Below are positions 1-6,078 of a DNA stretch of 6,078 nucleotides, one piece after another. Source of the DNA: Burkholderiales bacterium. Its GTDB lineage: Bacteria > Pseudomonadota > Gammaproteobacteria > Burkholderiales > CAIKXV01. Made by a program: the position numbers and the translations under genes. The notes beneath the pieces were generated by a model. It was given only the letters and a program-made list of their open reading frames with translations. It had not been told where the DNA came from and did not search any database. The stretch is taken from contig JAIENF010000738.1 in assembly GCA_019751575.1 (NCBI GenBank), forward strand, positions 1 through 6,078, read 5' to 3'. Position 1 is the stretch's first letter. Each line of letters opens with the position of its first letter.

Positions 1-115
1 AGAGAGGTTGAACTCTTGCTCTCTCTCTCCCTCTCTTTCTCTGCTATCTAGCTCGCTCTCTCTCATCTCGCCGACGCACGAGCAGCTCTGTCCCTCTATC
101 CTTCTCTCAGAGCGC
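1..115. repeat. CT-rich low-complexity stretch at the window edge
   Basis: The first ~115 bases are dominated by CT dinucleotide runs and short pyrimidine blocks, clearest at about 13-45 and 50-68, with a short AGAGAG at 1-6 that is complementary to them. Composition is unlike the GC-rich coding sequence that follows, although one reading frame stays open through it and gives a Ser/Leu-rich peptide resembling no N-terminus I know for the gene downstream. The simplest reading is a low-quality or misassembled contig end. A genuine low-complexity insertion cannot be excluded from the sequence alone. Confidence 0.6.
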
Positions 116-883
116 CGCCGCATCGCATCGATTCAAAACAATGCCAGGCGACAAAGAGCAGCAGCAGCCGACGATGCATCCAGGCCGCTGCCCACGGTGG
201 CCGCCGCAGCGGCGCCGCCCCCGGCCAGCGTCCGCTTTCCCAGCAGCGGCCGTCTCGACTACGCGGTCAGCATCGGCTCGCCGCCAACCCCGGTCGGTCG
301 TGCGACCTATGCCTGGGAAGCAAGCGAGACTGCCTACCGGCTCAGCCTGAGCGCCGAGACAACGGGGCTGGTCGGCCTGCTGCGACGCGTGCGCGTGGTC
401 CAGATGAGCGAGGGGCGGATCACCCCGGACGGCTTGAGACCGGACGCGTTCTCGATGGACCGCGGCCCGAAGGCGCGCAATGAGTTCGCGCGCTTCGACT
501 GGGCCGGCAAGCAGATCACCTTCGGCTATCCCGACGCCCAGCAGACCGCCGCGCTCGGCGACGGCACGCAGGACACGCTGTCTCTGATCCTGCAGTTCGC
601 GTTCGTGCCGATCGGCGACGGCAGGCGCGAGGTGCTGCTGACCACGGGGCGCAGGCTCTACGTGCAGACGTACGAACGCGTCGGGGAGGAGGTGGTCGAA
701 ACCCCGGCCGGGAACTGGCGCGCATGGCACCTGAGGCGCGTTCGCGCACAAGCCGGCGACGAAGGCTACGATATGTGGCTGGCGACCGATCGACCGTTCC
801 TGCCGGTGCGCATCCGCTGGACCGACCGCAACGGACGCGTGACCAGCGCGACCCTCGATACGGTGCGGCTCGCGCGGGACTGA
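2..883 (+). CDS. DUF3108 domain-containing protein, N-terminus unresolved
   Basis: The reliable part is the stretch from about base 220 to the stop at 881-883, which reads as a DUF3108 domain. It has a Ser-Gly-x-Leu-x-Tyr opening, a Gly-x-Ala-x-x-x-Trp strand, a Gly-Leu-Arg-Pro-Asp-x-Phe segment, an FDWAGKQITFG segment and a GTQDTLSL segment. Family members I recall are exported or membrane-anchored proteins, with an N-terminal hydrophobic segment and a Pro/Ala-rich linker before the domain. The linker (about bases 180-225, Ala/Pro-rich) is present, but the hydrophobic segment is not visible. In its place is translation of the CT-rich edge sequence. The frame is open to the left edge and the first possible start is a TTG at 8, which I do not trust. 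The gene is probably truncated or corrupted on its 5' side. Function is unknown. It lies directly upstream of an RsmB-like gene, as I recall for Burkholderiales. Confidence 0.75.
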   Translation, partial: ERLNSCSLSPSLSLLSSSLSLISPTHEQLCPSILLSERRRIASIQNNARRQRAAAADDASRPLPTVAAAAAPPPASVRFPSSGRLDYAVSIGSPPTPVGRATYAWEASETAYRLSLSAETTGLVGLLRRVRVVQMSEGRITPDGLRPDAFSMDRGPKARNEFARFDWAGKQITFGYPDAQQTAALGDGTQDTLSLILQFAFVPIGDGRREVLLTTGRRLYVQTYERVGEEVVETPAGNWRAWHLRRVRAQAGDEGYDMWLATDRPFLPVRIRWTDRNGRVTSATLDTVRLARD

Positions 884-1001
884 CCGCGCATCCCGCACGC
901 GAACCCCGGCCGAGCGCTTCCTCCCGGGTCGTCCGCCCCACCCCTGTTCCCGCTCCTGCGGTTCCCGTTTCTGTCCCCTGTTCGCGATCGGCCCTTCTTC
1001 G
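884..1001. other. Intergenic gap before the methyltransferase gene
   Basis: This is a 118-base pyrimidine-rich gap with no convincing promoter hexamers, hairpin or Shine-Dalgarno. A near-perfect direct repeat is present: CCCCTGTTCCCG at 941-952 and CCCCTGTTCGCG at 975-986, with another GTTCCCG at 961-967. I assign no function to it. Confidence 0.3.
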
Positions 1002-2399
1002 ATGGATGCACTGCCCTCCCCCAACCCGCTGCGCATCGACGCAGCCACCCAGGCGCTGAGCCTCGCATCGACCTTCGCGCTGCCCGCCGACCAGGTGCTG
1101 CACCAGTTCTTCCGCACCCGGCGCGAACTCGGCCCGCTCGACCGTGCGTTCGCCGCCGAAGTGATGTACACGGTGCTGCGCCGCTGGCGCACGCTGAATG
1201 CCCGGGCGAGCGTGACGGCACCGGCGGCGGCCGCCGAACCGGCTGCGGGTGCGCCGGGCGCTGCCACCGTCCCCTCCATCGACGCCTCCACCTTCGCCGC
1301 TGCAGGCATCGCAGCGCCCGCGTCCGTCGAAGCCCTGGCGCCCACGCCGCGCCGACTGGTGCTGGTCGCGCTGACCACCGTGTTCGGACTGTCGGCGCGC
1401 GCGCTCGAGCCGGTGATCGGCCGCAACGACAGCGAATGGCTGGCGACCACGCATGCGATGGATCCGTCCGCGCTGTCGGCCGGTGCCGCACTGGACATCC
1501 CGGACTGGCTCTACGATCGTCTGCACGCGCGCTTCGGGGCCGCCGAGACCGCGCAGCTGGTCGCTGCGCTCAACCAGCCGGCCCCGCTCGACCTGCGGGT
1601 CAACCCGGCGAAGATCGACCGCGAGGCGGCGATCGCGCAACTGCAATCGCGGCGGATGGACGCGCGCGCCACGCAGTATTCGCCGTTCGGCCTGCGCATC
1701 GAAGGCCGGCCCAACCTCGGCCGCGATCCCCTGTACGAGCAGGGCGCGATCGAGGTGCAGGACGAAGGCAGCCAGCTGCTTGCCCAGCTGGTCGCGCCGA
1801 AGCGGCGCGAGATGGTGGTCGACTTCTGTGCCGGGGCCGGCGGCAAGACGCTGGCACTGGGCGCGCTGATGCAGTCGACCGGGCGCCTCTATGCGTTCGA
1901 CGTGTCCGAGCGGCGGCTGAAGGCGTTCGAGCCCCGGCTGCGGCGAAGCGGATTGTCGAACGTGCATCCACAGCTGCTGTCGAGCGAAGTCGACGCACGC
2001 GTCAAGCGCCTCGCCGGCAAGATCGACCGCGTGCTGGTCGATGCGCCCTGCACCGGCCTGGGCACGCTGCGCCGCAATCCGGACATGAAGTGGCGGCAGC
2101 CGGAATCTGCAGTGGCCGAGATGACGGCCAAGCAGTCGGCGATCCTGGCCAGTGCAGCCCGGCTGCTCAAGCCGGGGGGCCGCATCGTCTACGCCACCTG
2201 CAGCCTGCTGGAAGAAGAGAACCGCCTCGTGGTCGAGGCCTTCCTCGCGGCGAATCCGGCGTTCGCGTTGCGTCCGGCGAACGAGGTGCTGGCCGGCCTG
2301 GGCATCGCGCTCGATACCGGACCGTACCTCGAGCTGCTGCCGCATCGCCATGGCACGGACGGGTTCTTCGCCGCGGTGCTGGAACGCGCGAAGTCCTGA
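1002..2399 (+). CDS. RsmB/NOP-family SAM-dependent RNA (cytosine-C5) methyltransferase
   Basis: This 465-aa cytoplasmic enzyme is predicted to transfer a methyl group from SAM to C5 of a cytosine in RNA, probably 16S rRNA as RsmB does. The SAM-binding motif I, VDFCAGAGGKT, lies at about residues 273-283. Motif IV, DAPCTGLGTLRRNPDMKWR, is at 347-365 and holds the releasing Cys350. Motif VI, ATCSLLEEEN, is at 398-407 and holds the nucleophile Cys400. Both cysteines of the RsmB/NOP two-cysteine mechanism are therefore present. The N-terminal ~65 residues look like the start of the NusB-like RNA-binding domain. They are followed by an Ala/Pro-rich low-complexity insert at about 71-114. The ATG at 1002 has no good Shine-Dalgarno but is the only start that keeps the N-terminal helix and has no in-frame alternative just upstream. 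Family assignment is firm. The exact target base is inference, so no gene symbol is given. Confidence 0.93.
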   Translation: MDALPSPNPLRIDAATQALSLASTFALPADQVLHQFFRTRRELGPLDRAFAAEVMYTVLRRWRTLNARASVTAPAAAAEPAAGAPGAATVPSIDASTFAAAGIAAPASVEALAPTPRRLVLVALTTVFGLSARALEPVIGRNDSEWLATTHAMDPSALSAGAALDIPDWLYDRLHARFGAAETAQLVAALNQPAPLDLRVNPAKIDREAAIAQLQSRRMDARATQYSPFGLRIEGRPNLGRDPLYEQGAIEVQDEGSQLLAQLVAPKRREMVVDFCAGAGGKTLALGALMQSTGRLYAFDVSERRLKAFEPRLRRSGLSNVHPQLLSSEVDARVKRLAGKIDRVLVDAPCTGLGTLRRNPDMKWRQPESAVAEMTAKQSAILASAARLLKPGGRIVYATCSLLEEENRLVVEAFLAANPAFALRPANEVLAGLGIALDTGPYLELLPHRHGTDGFFAAVLERAKS

Positions 2400-2401
2400 G
2401 G
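2398..2401 (+). promoter_or_regulatory. Ribosome binding site overlapping the methyltransferase stop
   Basis: A GAGG core begins inside the TGA stop at 2397-2399 and lies 6 bases before the ATG at 2408. This site decides the start of the phospholipase D-family gene and suggests translational coupling to the methyltransferase gene. Confidence 0.5.
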
Positions 2402-2407
2402 CAGGCA

Positions 2408-3007
2408 ATGTCCCTGCGTGCGACGCTGTTGCCACTCACGCAGCTGATCGCCCTGCTGATGCTGGCCGGCGGGCAACCGGCCGCGGCGGGCGAGGCCCCG
2501 CCCGGCCAGTCGCGCCTGTTCGCCGCCACCGGCACGGTGCAGGTCGCGTTCACGCCGGGCGACCCGGTCGACGAGATCCTGATCGGCGTGATCGGACAGG
2601 CCCGGCAGCAGGTGCTGGTGAAGGCATTCAGCTTCACCCACAAGCGGATCGCGCGCGCGCTGGTCGATGCCCACCAGCGCGGCGTGCGCGTCGAGGTACT
2701 GGCGGACGAGCGCCAGGACCGGCAACTCGACGGAAGCGTACTGACCGACCTCGTGCGCAACGGCATCCCCGTCTGGCTCGATGCGAAGCGCGCGAGCGCG
2801 CACAACAAGGTGATGATCATCGATGCCGGAACGCCGGCGGCGGTGCTCGTCACCGGCAGCTACAACTTCACCTACTCGGCGCAGCGGCGCAATGCCGAGA
2901 ACGTGCTGGTGATGCGCGGCAACGTGGCGCTGGCCGGCGCCTTCGTCGACAACTGGCAGCGCCTGCGCGCATCGGCGCGGCCGTACCGCGCGCACGCCGT
3001 GCCTTGA
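2408..3007 (+). CDS. Exported phospholipase D-family protein with a single HKD motif
   Basis: This 199-aa protein belongs to the PLD superfamily, whose members hydrolyse phosphodiester bonds in lipids or nucleic acids. A signal peptide is visible at about 1-27: Arg4, a hydrophobic core at 8-20, then an Ala-rich end. The catalytic motif H-x-K-x4-D is at His132, Lys134 and Asp139, followed by GSYNFTYSA at 150-158 and the Glu164-Asn165 pair typical of the family. Only one HKD motif is present, as in the small bacterial endonuclease Nuc, which works as a homodimer. By length and layout this protein fits that group better than two-domain phospholipases. Substrate (DNA, RNA or lipid) cannot be told from sequence. 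The periplasm is its likely location. The frame is open upstream to 1436, but the part before 2408 runs antisense-like through the methyltransferase gene and is not real coding. The gene follows the methyltransferase stop by 8 bases. Confidence 0.88.
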   Translation: MSLRATLLPLTQLIALLMLAGGQPAAAGEAPPGQSRLFAATGTVQVAFTPGDPVDEILIGVIGQARQQVLVKAFSFTHKRIARALVDAHQRGVRVEVLADERQDRQLDGSVLTDLVRNGIPVWLDAKRASAHNKVMIIDAGTPAAVLVTGSYNFTYSAQRRNAENVLVMRGNVALAGAFVDNWQRLRASARPYRAHAVP

Positions 3008-3049
3008 GCGCTGCCAGGCAGTCACGTTCCGGGACCGCGACATTGCAAA

Positions 3050-3079
3050 ATCCTGCACTATCGGCCCCGCGATCCTGCA
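3050..3079. repeat. Direct repeat ATCCTGCA upstream of the binding-protein gene
   Basis: ATCCTGCA occurs at 3050-3057 and again at 3072-3079, 22 bases apart, about two helical turns. That spacing would suit a regulator binding on one face of the DNA. It may equally be chance, given only 8 matching bases. Confidence 0.25.
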
Positions 3080-3121
3080 TTGCCCGGGGTACTCGAAGCG
3101 GAAATGAATCCGCTCATCATC

Positions 3122-3128
3122 AAGGAGG
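3122..3128 (+). promoter_or_regulatory. Strong Shine-Dalgarno for the binding-protein gene
   Basis: AAGGAGG lies 6 bases before the ATG at 3135. It matches the anti-Shine-Dalgarno fully and is the best ribosome binding site in the window. It fixes the start codon and points to high expression of the first gene of the operon, as is usual for periplasmic binding proteins. Confidence 0.85.
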
Positions 3129-3134
3129 AAGACC

Positions 3135-4133
3135 ATGGCTTCATCACACTCGCCGCGAGAAGCGCTGGCAACGGACGGCCTGCGCGCCGGTGCAGCACTG
3201 GCGGCGCTGGTGGTCGCAGCCGCGGCACAGGCCCAGTTCCCGGACCGGCCGCTGCGTCTCATCGTGCCGTTCGCACCCGGGGGCAACATCGACCTGACCG
3301 CGCGCACCATCGCACCGGGCATGTCACAGGCGCTCGGCCAGCCGGTGGTGGTCGACAACCGGTCCGGCGCGGGCGGCCGCATCGGCGCGGAGGTGGCCGC
3401 CAAGTCGGCACCGGACGGATACACGCTGCTGCTCGGATCGAGCGGCTCGCTGACCATCAACCCCGTGTTCGGCACCAACGTCTCCTACGACCCACTGCGC
3501 GACTTCACGCCGACGACGCTGGTGTCGATCACGCCGCTGGTGGTGACGGTCCACCCGTCGGTCCCGGTCAAGACCATTGCCGGGCTCATCGCGCTGGCGA
3601 AGAAGCAGCCGGGCAGGCTCGCCGTGGCCTCGGCCGGCATCGGCTCGACCACCCACATCGCCAACGAGATCTTCCAGATCGAGGCCGGCGTCAAGTTCAT
3701 CCACGTGCCGTTCAAGGGCAGCGGCCCCGCGCTGGTCGACCTCGTCGGCGGCCATGCCGACCTGATGTTCGACCAGCTGTCGACGTCGTCGCCGCACGTC
3801 CGGGCGGGCCGGCTGCGCGCGCTCGCGCTCACCACGAGCAAGCGCTCCGCGCTGCTGCCGGAGATCCCGACGATCGAGGAAGCCGGCGTGCGTGGCTACG
3901 AGGTCGAGACCTGGACCGGGGTGTTCCTGCCGGCCAATGCGCCGAAGGAGATCGTGGCGCGGATCTGGAAGGCGGCCTACGACACGCTGGCCCAGCCCTC
4001 CGTGCGCGAGGCGTTCGAACGTCTCGGTTCCGAGCCGCTGCGCAGCACGCCGGAGGCGCTGGCCCTGCGCATGCGCAACGAGATGGTGAAGTGGACCAAG
4101 GTGAAGCAGGCCGTGAACATCAAGCTGGATTGA
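3135..4133 (+). CDS. Bug/TctC-family tripartite tricarboxylate transporter substrate-binding protein
   Basis: This 332-aa periplasmic solute receptor has the usual length of its family. A signal peptide covers about 1-33: a hydrophobic Ala/Leu/Val segment at 18-31, then AQA before Gln34. The mature start QFPDRPLRLIVPF is the classic Bug opening. PFAPGGNIDLTAR at 45-57 is the first ligand-pocket loop. DNRSGAGGRIGAE, then SAPDGYTLLL and later HVPFKGSGPALVDLVGGHAD, are further family landmarks. Characterised members bind carboxylates such as citrate, glutamate, aspartate or nicotinate. The ligand here cannot be named. No tctA/tctB membrane genes are in the window, so this is an orphan receptor, which is common in Burkholderiales. 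It heads an operon with a UGSC selenoprotein (17-base gap) and a conserved unknown protein, which suggests that its ligand relates to their chemistry. Confidence 0.94.
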   Translation: MASSHSPREALATDGLRAGAALAALVVAAAAQAQFPDRPLRLIVPFAPGGNIDLTARTIAPGMSQALGQPVVVDNRSGAGGRIGAEVAAKSAPDGYTLLLGSSGSLTINPVFGTNVSYDPLRDFTPTTLVSITPLVVTVHPSVPVKTIAGLIALAKKQPGRLAVASAGIGSTTHIANEIFQIEAGVKFIHVPFKGSGPALVDLVGGHADLMFDQLSTSSPHVRAGRLRALALTTSKRSALLPEIPTIEEAGVRGYEVETWTGVFLPANAPKEIVARIWKAAYDTLAQPSVREAFERLGSEPLRSTPEALALRMRNEMVKWTKVKQAVNIKLD

Positions 4134-4137
4134 GTGC

Positions 4138-4143
4138 GAGGGA
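4138..4143 (+). promoter_or_regulatory. Ribosome binding site of the selenoprotein gene
   Basis: GAGGGA lies 7 bases before the ATG at 4151, inside the 17-base gap after the binding-protein stop. It supports the 4151 start over the in-frame ATG two codons later at 4157. Confidence 0.6.
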
Positions 4144-4150
4144 CATCGAC

Positions 4151-4732
4151 ATGGCAATGATCAGGCTCGTGGTTCCGGAGGAACTGGCCGGCGCGGCACC
4201 GACCGCGGTCGGCGCGCACGCGGCATCCGTCGACGTTGCACCGGGCGCGGTGGCACCGACCGGGGCAGGACCGGGCGCGATGCTCAGGCTCGGCGTGCTC
4301 GACAACAGCAAGGGCAATGCCGACCACCTGCTCGCCTCGCTGGTCGAACGCCTGCGCGCCGAGATCCCGCTCTCCGCGGTGGTCGGCGCGCGCAAGCCGA
4401 CGTCTTCGCTGCCGGCCACCGACCAGGTGCTCGCCCGCCTCGCACAGGAGACCGACTGCGTCGTCTCGGCCATGGGCGACTGAGGGTCGTGCACGTCGTG
4501 GAGTGTCCACGACGCCGTTGAACTTCGCCGGCGCGGCAAGCCGAGCGCGGTTGTCTGCACGACCCTGTTCGAGGGCCTCGCCAGGGGTCAATGCCGGGCG
4601 CTCGGCATGCCGGACCTGCCGCTGTTCGTGGTCCCGCACCCGATCGGCGGCCTGTCGCGCGAGGAAGTCGAGCAACGTGCCGACCTTGCCTTCGCACCGC
4701 TGCTCGAGTGGATCAAGGGAGGGGCACGATGA
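4151..4732 (+). CDS. UGSC-family selenoprotein (Sec at residue 111, encoded by TGA 4481-4483)
   Basis: Read with the in-frame TGA at 4481-4483 as selenocysteine, this is a 193-aa protein. A conventional reading stops at 110 aa and loses the active site and C-terminal half. Visible landmarks are a poorly conserved Ala/Pro-rich leader at about 12-43, LDNSKGNADHLL at 50-61, a Lys at 82 in ARKPTSS, DCVVSAMGD at 102-110, then Sec111-Gly-Ser-Cys114 followed by TSWSVHDAVELRRRGKP to residue 131, and VVPHPIGGLSREE near 160-172. The U-G-S-C signature followed by T-S-W-x-x-H-D is what I recall for the UGSC family, first noted in marine metagenome selenoprotein surveys, which has Cys homologues with CGSC. 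UxxC resembles a thioredoxin CxxC, so a redox role is likely, but the reaction is unknown. Other cysteines are 103, 136 and 148. No signal peptide is seen. The true stop at 4730-4732 overlaps the next ATG, which supports readthrough. Alternative: a TGC-to-TGA nonsense mutation, made unlikely by the hairpin after the TGA. Confidence 0.9.
4481..4514 (+). promoter_or_regulatory. Bacterial SECIS element with the Sec TGA codon
   Basis: Right after the TGA at 4481-4483 lies a perfect 9-bp hairpin: CGTCGTGGA (4494-4502) pairs with TCCACGACG (4506-4514) around a GTG loop (4503-4505). There are 19 bases between TGA and loop. Bacterial SECIS elements sit within the coding sequence just after the UGA, with a short apical loop bearing an early G, usually about 16-37 bases from the UGA. 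In E. coli fdhF, as I recall it, 18 bases separate UGA and the GGU loop. The element would recruit SelB with Sec-tRNA. It also encodes residues 115-121, so the pairing is compatible with the conserved TSWSVHD protein segment. Confidence 0.85.
4717..4722 (+). promoter_or_regulatory. Ribosome binding site inside the selenoprotein 3' end
   Basis: GGGAGG lies 6 bases before the ATG at 4729 and within the last codons of the selenoprotein. With the ATGA stop/start overlap at 4729-4732, it indicates translational coupling and fixes the start of the next gene, ruling out longer readings of that frame from 4591. Confidence 0.75.
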
Positions 4733-5841
4733 GCAGACTGACGAACTGGCTCGACACACCGGGCTGCACCATCGATTGCGACGATGGGCTCGAGGCCATC
4801 CAGTCGCTGTTCCTCGCGCGCGGCTGGAGCGACGGCCTGCCGGTGATCCCGCCCACGTCCGAACGGGTCGAGGCGATGCTCGCGTACTGCGACCGCCCGT
4901 GGGACGAACCGTTCATGACGGTGCCGCCGCGCTACGCGCCCGCCACCCCGGCACGGATCGCGGCGAACGCGGTGATGGCCGGGCTGCAGCCCGCGCATTT
5001 TCCGCTGGTGCTGGCCGCGTTCGACGCGCTGAACGCGCCGGAGTTCAACCTGTACGGCATCCAGGCGACCACGCATCCGTGCACGCCGCTGCTGCTGTTC
5101 GGCGGACCGCTCGCCGTTGAAGCCGGCATCCATGGCGGCAACAACGCCTTCGGCCAGGGCTATCCGGCGAACGCGACCATCGGCCGCGCGGTACGTCTCG
5201 CCCTGGTGAACATCGGCGGTGCGATCCCGGGCATCGGCGACATGGCGACGCAGGGGACGCCGGCCAAGTTCGCCTACTGCTGTTCCGAGAACGAAGCGCA
5301 CAGCCCCTGGGAGCCGCTGCGCGTCGAACTCGGCCTGCCCGCCGAGGTGACCACGGTCACCGTGGTCGCCGCCGAAGGCCCGCACAACATCAACGACCAC
5401 GAGAGCACGACCGCGATCGGCGTGCTGAAGTCGATCGCCGGGACGGTCGCGATCACCGGCGCGAACAACGCCTATCACCCGTCCGTGCCGGTCGTCGCGA
5501 TCGGTCCTGAACATGCGCGGACCCTTGCCGACGGCGGCTACACCAAGCAGGCCGTGAAGGCGTACCTGTACGAGCATGCCAGGCTGCCGCTCGGACGGTT
5601 CTCAGACGAGAACATCGAGCGGCGGCTGCGCAAGCGGTTCCCCGAACGCTTTGCCACCGCCGGCCTGGACGCGCTGGTGCCGATGGCGCAGTCGCCCGAG
5701 GAATTCATGGTGTTCGTGGCCGGTGGCGCCGGCAAGCACTCGGCCTTCATCCCGACCTTCGGCAGCACGCGGCCGGTGACCCGGGTGGTCGCGACCGCCG
5801 ATGGCGTGCCGGCACGGCGGCTCGACGACTTCCGTCGCTGA
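4729..5841 (+). CDS. Conserved protein of unknown function, partner of the UGSC selenoprotein
   Basis: This 370-aa protein resembles a widespread group I remember only as hypothetical proteins. Its recognisable features are ARGWSDGLPVIPPT at 30-43, ARIAANAVMAGLQPAHFPLVL at about 75-95, an NLYGIQATTHP segment at 107-117, an Asn/Gly-rich segment HGGNNAFGQGYPANATIGRA at about 135-154, NIGGAIPG at 161-168, and CCSENEAHSPWEPL at 184-197. Cysteines are at 13, 17 (a CxxxC pair), 54, 118 and 184-185. Cys118 (THPCTP) and the Cys184-185 pair lie in conserved-looking segments and could be active-site or thiol-exchange residues. This is inference. No signal peptide or clear membrane helix is seen, so it is probably cytosolic. 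The gene overlaps the selenoprotein stop by 4 bases (ATGA), the tightest coupling in the window, so the two products may act on the same substrate or form a complex. Enzyme class is not assigned. Confidence 0.85.
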   Translation: MSRLTNWLDTPGCTIDCDDGLEAIQSLFLARGWSDGLPVIPPTSERVEAMLAYCDRPWDEPFMTVPPRYAPATPARIAANAVMAGLQPAHFPLVLAAFDALNAPEFNLYGIQATTHPCTPLLLFGGPLAVEAGIHGGNNAFGQGYPANATIGRAVRLALVNIGGAIPGIGDMATQGTPAKFAYCCSENEAHSPWEPLRVELGLPAEVTTVTVVAAEGPHNINDHESTTAIGVLKSIAGTVAITGANNAYHPSVPVVAIGPEHARTLADGGYTKQAVKAYLYEHARLPLGRFSDENIERRLRKRFPERFATAGLDALVPMAQSPEEFMVFVAGGAGKHSAFIPTFGSTRPVTRVVATADGVPARRLDDFRR

Positions 5842-5842
5842 A

Positions 5843-5865
5843 GCGCCTGATCGATGATCAGGCGC
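5843..5865. terminator. Inverted repeat between converging genes, candidate two-way terminator
   Basis: GCGCCTGATC (5843-5852) and GATCAGGCGC (5856-5865) are perfect 10-bp arms with a GAT loop. The hairpin starts one base after the + strand stop at 5839-5841 and overlaps the stop of the - strand gene at 5858-5860. It is placed to end transcription from both sides. No run of T follows on either strand, so it is not a textbook intrinsic terminator, though high-GC genomes often use such T-poor hairpins. Confidence 0.55.
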
Positions 5866-6078
5866 GTACCGGGAAACCGTACAGCTGCGCCGGATTGTCC
5901 ACCAGCACCCGCTGCCTGACCCCGGCGTCCGGCAGCCATCCCGCGAGCGCGTCGATCAGCATGCCGTCGTCGGGCACGCGTGCCGGCGCGAACAGGTTCG
6001 GGTGCGGCCAGTTCGAACCCCAGACCACGCGGTCGGGCCGGGCGGCGACGATCGCGCGCGCGATCGGCGCCATGTCGG
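5858..6078 (-). CDS. Amidohydrolase-2 family protein (PDC-hydrolase-like), C-terminal part only
   Basis: Only the last ~73 residues are in the window. The frame is open to the right edge, and the ATG at 6071-6073 is internal because a codon for Asp precedes it in frame and the family is about 280-300 aa. The piece contains PDRVVWGSNWPHPN and then VLVDNPAQLYGF near the stop, the typical C-terminal end of metal-dependent TIM-barrel hydrolases related to 2-pyrone-4,6-dicarboxylate hydrolase (LigI). These open lactone or ring esters of carboxylic acids. In the relatives I recall, the segment reads WG-[ST]-DWPHP with an Asp on strand 8 that takes part in catalysis. Here it is Asn (codon at 6011-6013). 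The gene converges on the operon, so it is not co-transcribed with it. A shared pathway is possible but unproven. Confidence 0.85.
   Translation of the reverse strand, partial: DMAPIARAIVAARPDRVVWGSNWPHPNLFAPARVPDDGMLIDALAGWLPDAGVRQRVLVDNPAQLYGFPVRA

Follow-up and report, generated by a model that had tools for sequence, protein, structure and literature searches.

The 6,078-nucleotide stretch of DNA analyzed here (the window: Burkholderiales bacterium, GCA_019751575.1, contig JAIENF010000738.1, positions 1–6,078, forward strand) carries a gene of the UGSC family in which, judging from the sequence evidence, an in-frame UGA at 4481–4483 is almost certainly decoded as selenocysteine (Sec). The UGSC family is already known from Pfam, NCBIfam and the literature, and the window gene is a further member of it. 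Beyond this assignment, comparisons across genomes reveal a recurrent partner protein and point to a probable relationship between the UGSC Sec domain and that of selenoprotein B, from which we consider it, overall, about an even bet that UGSC and its partner form a two-part Sec enzyme—with Sec decoded—for which cleavage of a carbon–heteroatom bond, the least certain part, would be the chemistry.

The Reading Frame Continues Through a Conserved UGA

The features of the gene are as follows:

4151..4732, + strand: UGSC-family gene, predicted selenoprotein of 193 amino acids, Sec at residue 111, stop TGA 4730–4732 (PF24696, NF041046)
4481..4483, + strand: in-frame UGA, predicted Sec codon 111 (TGA in 82/82 loci covering the codon)
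4490..4492, + strand: codon of Cys114, which closes the U-x-x-C motif (column C114 invariant in 48 sequences)
4494..4514, + strand: predicted bacterial selenocysteine insertion sequence (SECIS) hairpin, 9-base-pair stem, GUG loop (from fold, synonymous-site freeze and two-sided pair changes)
4138..4143, + strand: GAGGGA, resembling a ribosome-binding site by eye, 7 nucleotides 5' of ATG 4151

A preliminary description of this DNA had proposed a UGSC-family selenoprotein with Sec111, read from a frame that stays open through TGA 4481–4483 until 4730, and the sequence bears this out as far as it can. Counted from ATG 4151, TGA 4481–4483 is codon 111 and the next in-frame stop is TGA 4730–4732, while the residues around the first TGA, VSAMGD-U-GSCTSWSVHD, which had been recognized as the family signature, contain the Sec111-Gly-Ser-Cys114 motif. 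The read-through protein exceeds both family cut-offs: it matches Pfam UGSC (PF24696) over residues 43–184 at 3.4e-45 (154.7 bits, cut-off 25) and NCBIfam UGSC (NF041046) at 2.3e-38 (131.5 bits, cut-off 125). Because it lies so far above the PF24696 cut-off, the read-through frame is confirmed, at the level of sequence, as real and beyond chance. The window gene itself shows no difference from the described family, which was reported as a selenoprotein in the Global Ocean Sampling survey with the same U-G-S-C motif and an in-frame UGA accompanied by a hairpin (PMC2398784).

We scanned 84,980 species genomes and took the best 80 of 85 matches, which resolved into 79 distinct loci; together with the window locus and two paralogues from the host genome these made 82 loci, and codon 111 was TGA in every one that covered it (82/82). 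The only search pattern spanning this codon was written with cysteine, so TGA was not favored by the search. The same picture holds at other taxonomic depths. Within the window's own genus, UGSC occurred in 11/11 genomes and a single TGA was present in 57 of 58 matches, the remaining match stopping at profile position 79, which we reckon to lie before the Sec. In a survey of 369 genomes of the class, UGSC was found in six, with 17 matches, of which 16 carried TGA and one (L116) carried cysteine (TGC).

Could the UGA instead be a true stop, ending a 110-amino-acid protein and leaving the remainder to decay? Public predictions often take that form: among the 88 public relatives found, 61 stop precisely at the UGA, 19 have cysteine there and 8 neither. 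The nine best-scoring relatives are all among the 61, the first being the cluster that contains the window's own protein. However, TGA is kept in all 82 loci with conserved sequence beyond it. The frame stays open beyond the TGA in homologues, and the public proteins ending there look like gene-caller stubs—just as had been anticipated for a standard caller, which truncates before the active site. Selection on the downstream part also argues against decay. Compared with L019 (85% identical), the ratio of nonsynonymous to synonymous substitution rates (dN/dS) is 0.16 downstream of the TGA and 0.22 upstream, as against 1.7 and 13.5 in the two shifted frames beyond the hairpin. The closer L020 shows 3 synonymous and 3 nonsynonymous changes downstream (dN/dS 0.35), a count too small to decide, and beyond the hairpin 2 synonymous and 3 nonsynonymous (0.55), too few to inform. 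Among 48 homologues, the residues invariant after the Sec position include Cys114, Thr115, Asp121, Gly129, Phe140, Gly152 and Pro164. We therefore give a true stop next to no credence. One consequence is that UGSC entries in public protein sets are often truncated at the active site (the 61 of 88 relatives found here).

A Candidate SECIS Hairpin Follows the UGA

Ten nucleotides 3' of the UGA lies the hairpin CGTCGTGGA-GTG-TCCACGACG (4494–4514), with a 9-base-pair stem and a GUG loop. Bacterial SECIS elements are described as carrying a guanosine in a small apical loop (PMC1088965), and the GUG loop of the window hairpin fits that pattern. By folding energy alone the hairpin does not stand out (z −1.39). 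Its sequence is nearly frozen at sites where the code would allow change: normalized codon diversity is 0.03 in the six degenerate hairpin codons vs. 0.46 in 48 codons outside, and the codon of Ser118 is AGT in 81/81 sequences. Across 81 relatives, the cells of the hairpin pairs are standard in 649 of 729 cases, with slid-strand controls giving 81–401. The outermost pair is unmatched in 79/81 relatives, so the conserved stem is one of 8 base pairs. Covariation is sparse because most of the hairpin sequences are identical (72/81); nevertheless, the second pair changes from G-C to A-T in two sequences (and is broken in one), and an inner pair changes from G-C to C-G in the paralogue L098 and, apparently, by eye, in L117. 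Stems of more distant forms differ.

The Host Encodes the Selenocysteine Machinery

The preliminary description had made the presence of sel genes a check on its reading, and selA, selB, selC, and selD are all present in the host genome, a draft of 3.8 Mb in 807 contigs that is 84% complete. Of the three findings that it said would refute the reading (no sel genes, TGC or TGT at the codon, homologues that truly end there), none was encountered in the assembled sequences. The first three genes are consecutive on one contig:

6009–7343: selA
7392–9287: selB
9353–9444: tRNA-Sec, anticodon TCA

The host selD (L016, contig C774) lies on a different contig and carries an in-frame TGA of its own, by which host SelD is probably also a selenoprotein. 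The two additional UGSC genes of this genome each have the TGA as well. Among six UGSC-bearing genomes, selB is full in four and partial, below cut-off, in G394. It was not found in G193 (97% complete), although the UGSC gene there has a TGA, which counts against the reading.

These genes also bear on whether the UGA might be decoded as cysteine or some other residue rather than Sec. Cysteine forms of UGSC do exist (the 19 of 88 public relatives and the TGC of L116), but the host has the tRNA-Sec (TCA) together with selA, selB, and selD, and the 43 nucleotides from the UGA onward have folding energies between −9.8 and −21.1 kcal/mol in 14 Sec forms vs. −5.1 in L116, the single Cys form. Decoding as another residue is thus very improbable.

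A Recurrent Partner Protein, Sometimes Fused to UGSC

4729..5841, + strand: partner gene, 370 amino acids, without Pfam domain (ATGA 4729–4732 overlaps the UGSC stop)

The window gene is directly followed by this partner, and the arrangement recurs: of 79 loci, 64 have the partner 3' of UGSC, 54 of them with a 4-base overlap between the two genes. In these 64 loci, the extended frame ends in ATGA 47 times and in GTGA 12 times. The overlap had earlier been taken to make sense only if translation passes through the TGA. Its conservation does lend weight to that reading, but the word "only" is too strong, because 4-base overlaps are common between genes and such an overlap alone is no proof of read-through.

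Each of the 11 long UGSC frames in three other genomes is a UGSC–partner fusion; 10 have TGA and one has TGC, and in the TGC frame the partner part is shortened. The UGSC part was found by blastp in 10 of the 11 and by PF24696 in all. L111 is another natural fusion of this kind. The window partner matches the fusions by BLASTP at values down to 4e-41, and the partner profile matches the fusion profile at 9e-112, a figure that is partly by construction, as fusion C-termini are in both alignments. A fusion of UGSC to an unnamed domain, Unknown_1, is on record (PMC2398784). In the accessible parts of the literature on UGSC, we found no mention of the adjacent 370-amino-acid partner or of a relationship to protein B.

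No Pfam domain was detected in the partner, and neither a credible relative in the PDB nor a convincing fold match turned up; its predicted structure is confident (predicted local distance difference test score, 90.8). Residues invariant among 57 partner sequences include Asp35, Pro42, Asn148, Arg153, Asn161, Glu187, and Trp194, among others.

Two observations sit less easily with a two-part enzyme. No cysteine is invariant or nearly invariant in the 57 partner sequences, which implies that the partner is no pyruvoyl proprotein of the GrdE or PrdA kind. Moreover, among the 76 loci long enough to hold one next to UGSC, 12 lack the partner (3 of the 79 being too short to tell). Residue 113 is alanine (U-G-A-C) in 11 of these 12 partnerless loci, yet it is so in 9 loci with a partner too, so that the link between Ala113 and partner absence is only partial.

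Several further features of these loci were seen. Four U-G-A-C members without partner (L043, L053, L058, and L059) have TctC genes directly downstream. In G003 (C145) and G006 (C2), tandem UGSC matches lie <100 base pairs apart, the second within a 600-amino-acid frame. On contig C2 of G389, the fusion L124 is divergent from selB, with ~250 base pairs between the profile matches, and tRNA-Sec is a few hundred bases away from the fusion L121. By eye, the N-termini of six fusions (L114, L118, L119, L120, L121, and L123) resemble signal peptides; if they are, these would be exported selenoproteins.

The UGSC Sec Domain and Selenoprotein B

We compared 48 hand-picked UGSC proteins, each scanned singly, with 18,950 NCBIfam models at expectation (E) values up to 1. 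For 33 of them there is a match to glycine reductase selenoprotein B, at best 5.7e-6, with further protein-B matches to the general model (17), GrdF (14), GrdH (5), and PrdB (2), and any family other than UGSC and these five protein-B/PrdB models is matched by one member at most. The 12 fusions give the same ranking: the five models come next after UGSC (4, 4, 4, 3, and 2 members; best 1.5e-6), followed by the next family at 0.012. This weak but consistent pattern around the Sec makes it likely, on sequence grounds, that the UGSC Sec domain is related to the protein-B Sec domain. The U-x-x-C motif is shared by the two.

Several results weigh against that relationship. The fusion L111 matches PrdB at 1.5e-6 (27.9 bits against a cut-off of 300) and four protein-B models between 1.3e-5 and 4.1e-4, but it was picked up through a protein-B model match in the first place, which makes these values a best case favored by selection. 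The window protein itself reaches only 0.005 and 0.2 against the protein-B models, far under their cut-offs (scores of 15.8 against 602.2 and 10.6 against 65.45; models TIGR01917 and TIGR01918 checked), and has no match to the PrdB model TIGR04483. Aligned to a profile of eight PrdB-like sequences from relatives, UGSC obtains an hhalign probability of 3.7% (E 0.012), with Sec aligned to Sec; in the reverse direction, the UGSC model picks up none of these eight even at E values as high as 10. GrdA and GrdE were unmatched in 6/6 genomes, a negative of little weight because neither family matched any control either.

PrdB-like selenoproteins (L101–L107 and L110) have the motif U-P-[NRV]-C-T-C and match PrdB at up to 1.5e-33, below cut-off. 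The full-length proteins have an extra C-terminal part of ~180 amino acids, and L104 is the host genome's copy (partial).

Comparison with the known systems shows both likeness and difference. UGSC proteins are ~190 amino acids long vs. ~430 for the protein-B models (GrdB, GrdH, and GrdF), and the protein they are paired with is no Cys-cleaved pyruvoyl proprotein. D-Proline reductase likewise has a short, separate Sec subunit in PrdB (TIGR04483; model, 238 amino acids), but UGSC falls under its cut-off, and the UGSC partner matches no Pfam family, hence none of PrdA's. Some protein-B partners also lack the Cys-cleaved pyruvoyl feature: in the fluoroacetate reductase FarB/FarE of Cloacibacillus, a protein-B-type Sec subunit is combined with a non-pyruvoyl partner, FarE, and a transporter (PMC10838667). 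That system, however, belongs to a rumen anaerobe and consists of true GrdB/GrdE homologues; for UGSC it is only an analogy.

Fold, Proposed Mechanism and Competing Functions

The predicted structural model of UGSC shows five strand–helix repeats with the Sec after strand 3, i.e., a predicted Rossmann-like alpha/beta domain with Sec111 at the start of a helix. These repeats speak, as far as the model goes, against a thioredoxin fold and so bear on the suggestion that UGSC is a general thiol–disulfide oxidoreductase of thioredoxin-like fold, with U-x-x-C as the redox pair and the partner as target or reductase. That suggestion has published backing, with a thioredoxin-like fold given as likely (PMC2398784) and UGSC named beside thioredoxin-like proteins (PMC13188914), and the U-x-x-C motif would suit an oxidoreductase; we nonetheless regard it as unlikely.

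Less likely again is that UGSC and its partner bind or carry a metal, metalloid or selenium species and reduce no organic substrate. In general, a soft metal could be bound by Sec and Cys at a spacing of three residues, and the partner lacks any known enzyme domain. However, 116 hand-picked neighboring open reading frames gave 76 Pfam families, and among the 25 commonest of these are TctC receptors, type III CoA-transferases, and MmgE/PrpD but no metal-handling family.

The ligands of TctC receptors are small carboxylates, a hint at what a UGSC–partner enzyme might act on. Carbon–heteroatom chemistry, which we propose tentatively and by analogy, would then run as follows. The partner would hold a small carboxylate supplied through the TctC receptor, and the Sec111 selenolate would attack a C–N, C–halogen or C–O bond of this substrate; Cys114 would resolve the adduct, freeing the product and forming a Se–S bond, which a cellular dithiol would reduce. 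The attack by Sec111 and resolution by Cys114 are modeled on glycine and D-proline reductases, for which a Se–C bond with the substrate has been proposed that is cleaved with formation of Se–S (PMC10298544), and on FarB, proposed to attack the C–F bond (PMC10838667).

Gene Neighborhood in the Window

3135..4133, + strand: TctC-type solute receptor gene, ending 17 base pairs 5' of the UGSC gene (PF03401, 2.2e-70)
5861..6076, − strand: C-terminal fragment of an amidohydrolase, convergent and truncated by the window end (PF04909, 7.5e-14)

The amidohydrolase fragment scores 70 bits against NCBIfam NF042924, far under the cut-off of 500. Positions 1–135 are CT-rich and of low complexity, unlike the GC-rich remainder, and a DUF3108 frame (2–883) enters them without a clear start; the CT-rich start is possibly a contig-end artifact.

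Implications

In its widest form, which we hold to be less likely than not, our proposal is that UGSC and its partner may represent an unrecognized class of selenium-dependent reductases, splitting carbon–heteroatom bonds in free-living Proteobacteria without the pyruvoyl subunit of glycine reductase, with several duplicate copies per genome that would each serve another substrate, some of these substrates being brought in by a TctC receptor of their own. The recurrent partner, the one-chain fusions and the probable link to protein B turn a family of "unknown" function into a testable enzyme, for which the question becomes which substrate bonds to selenium.
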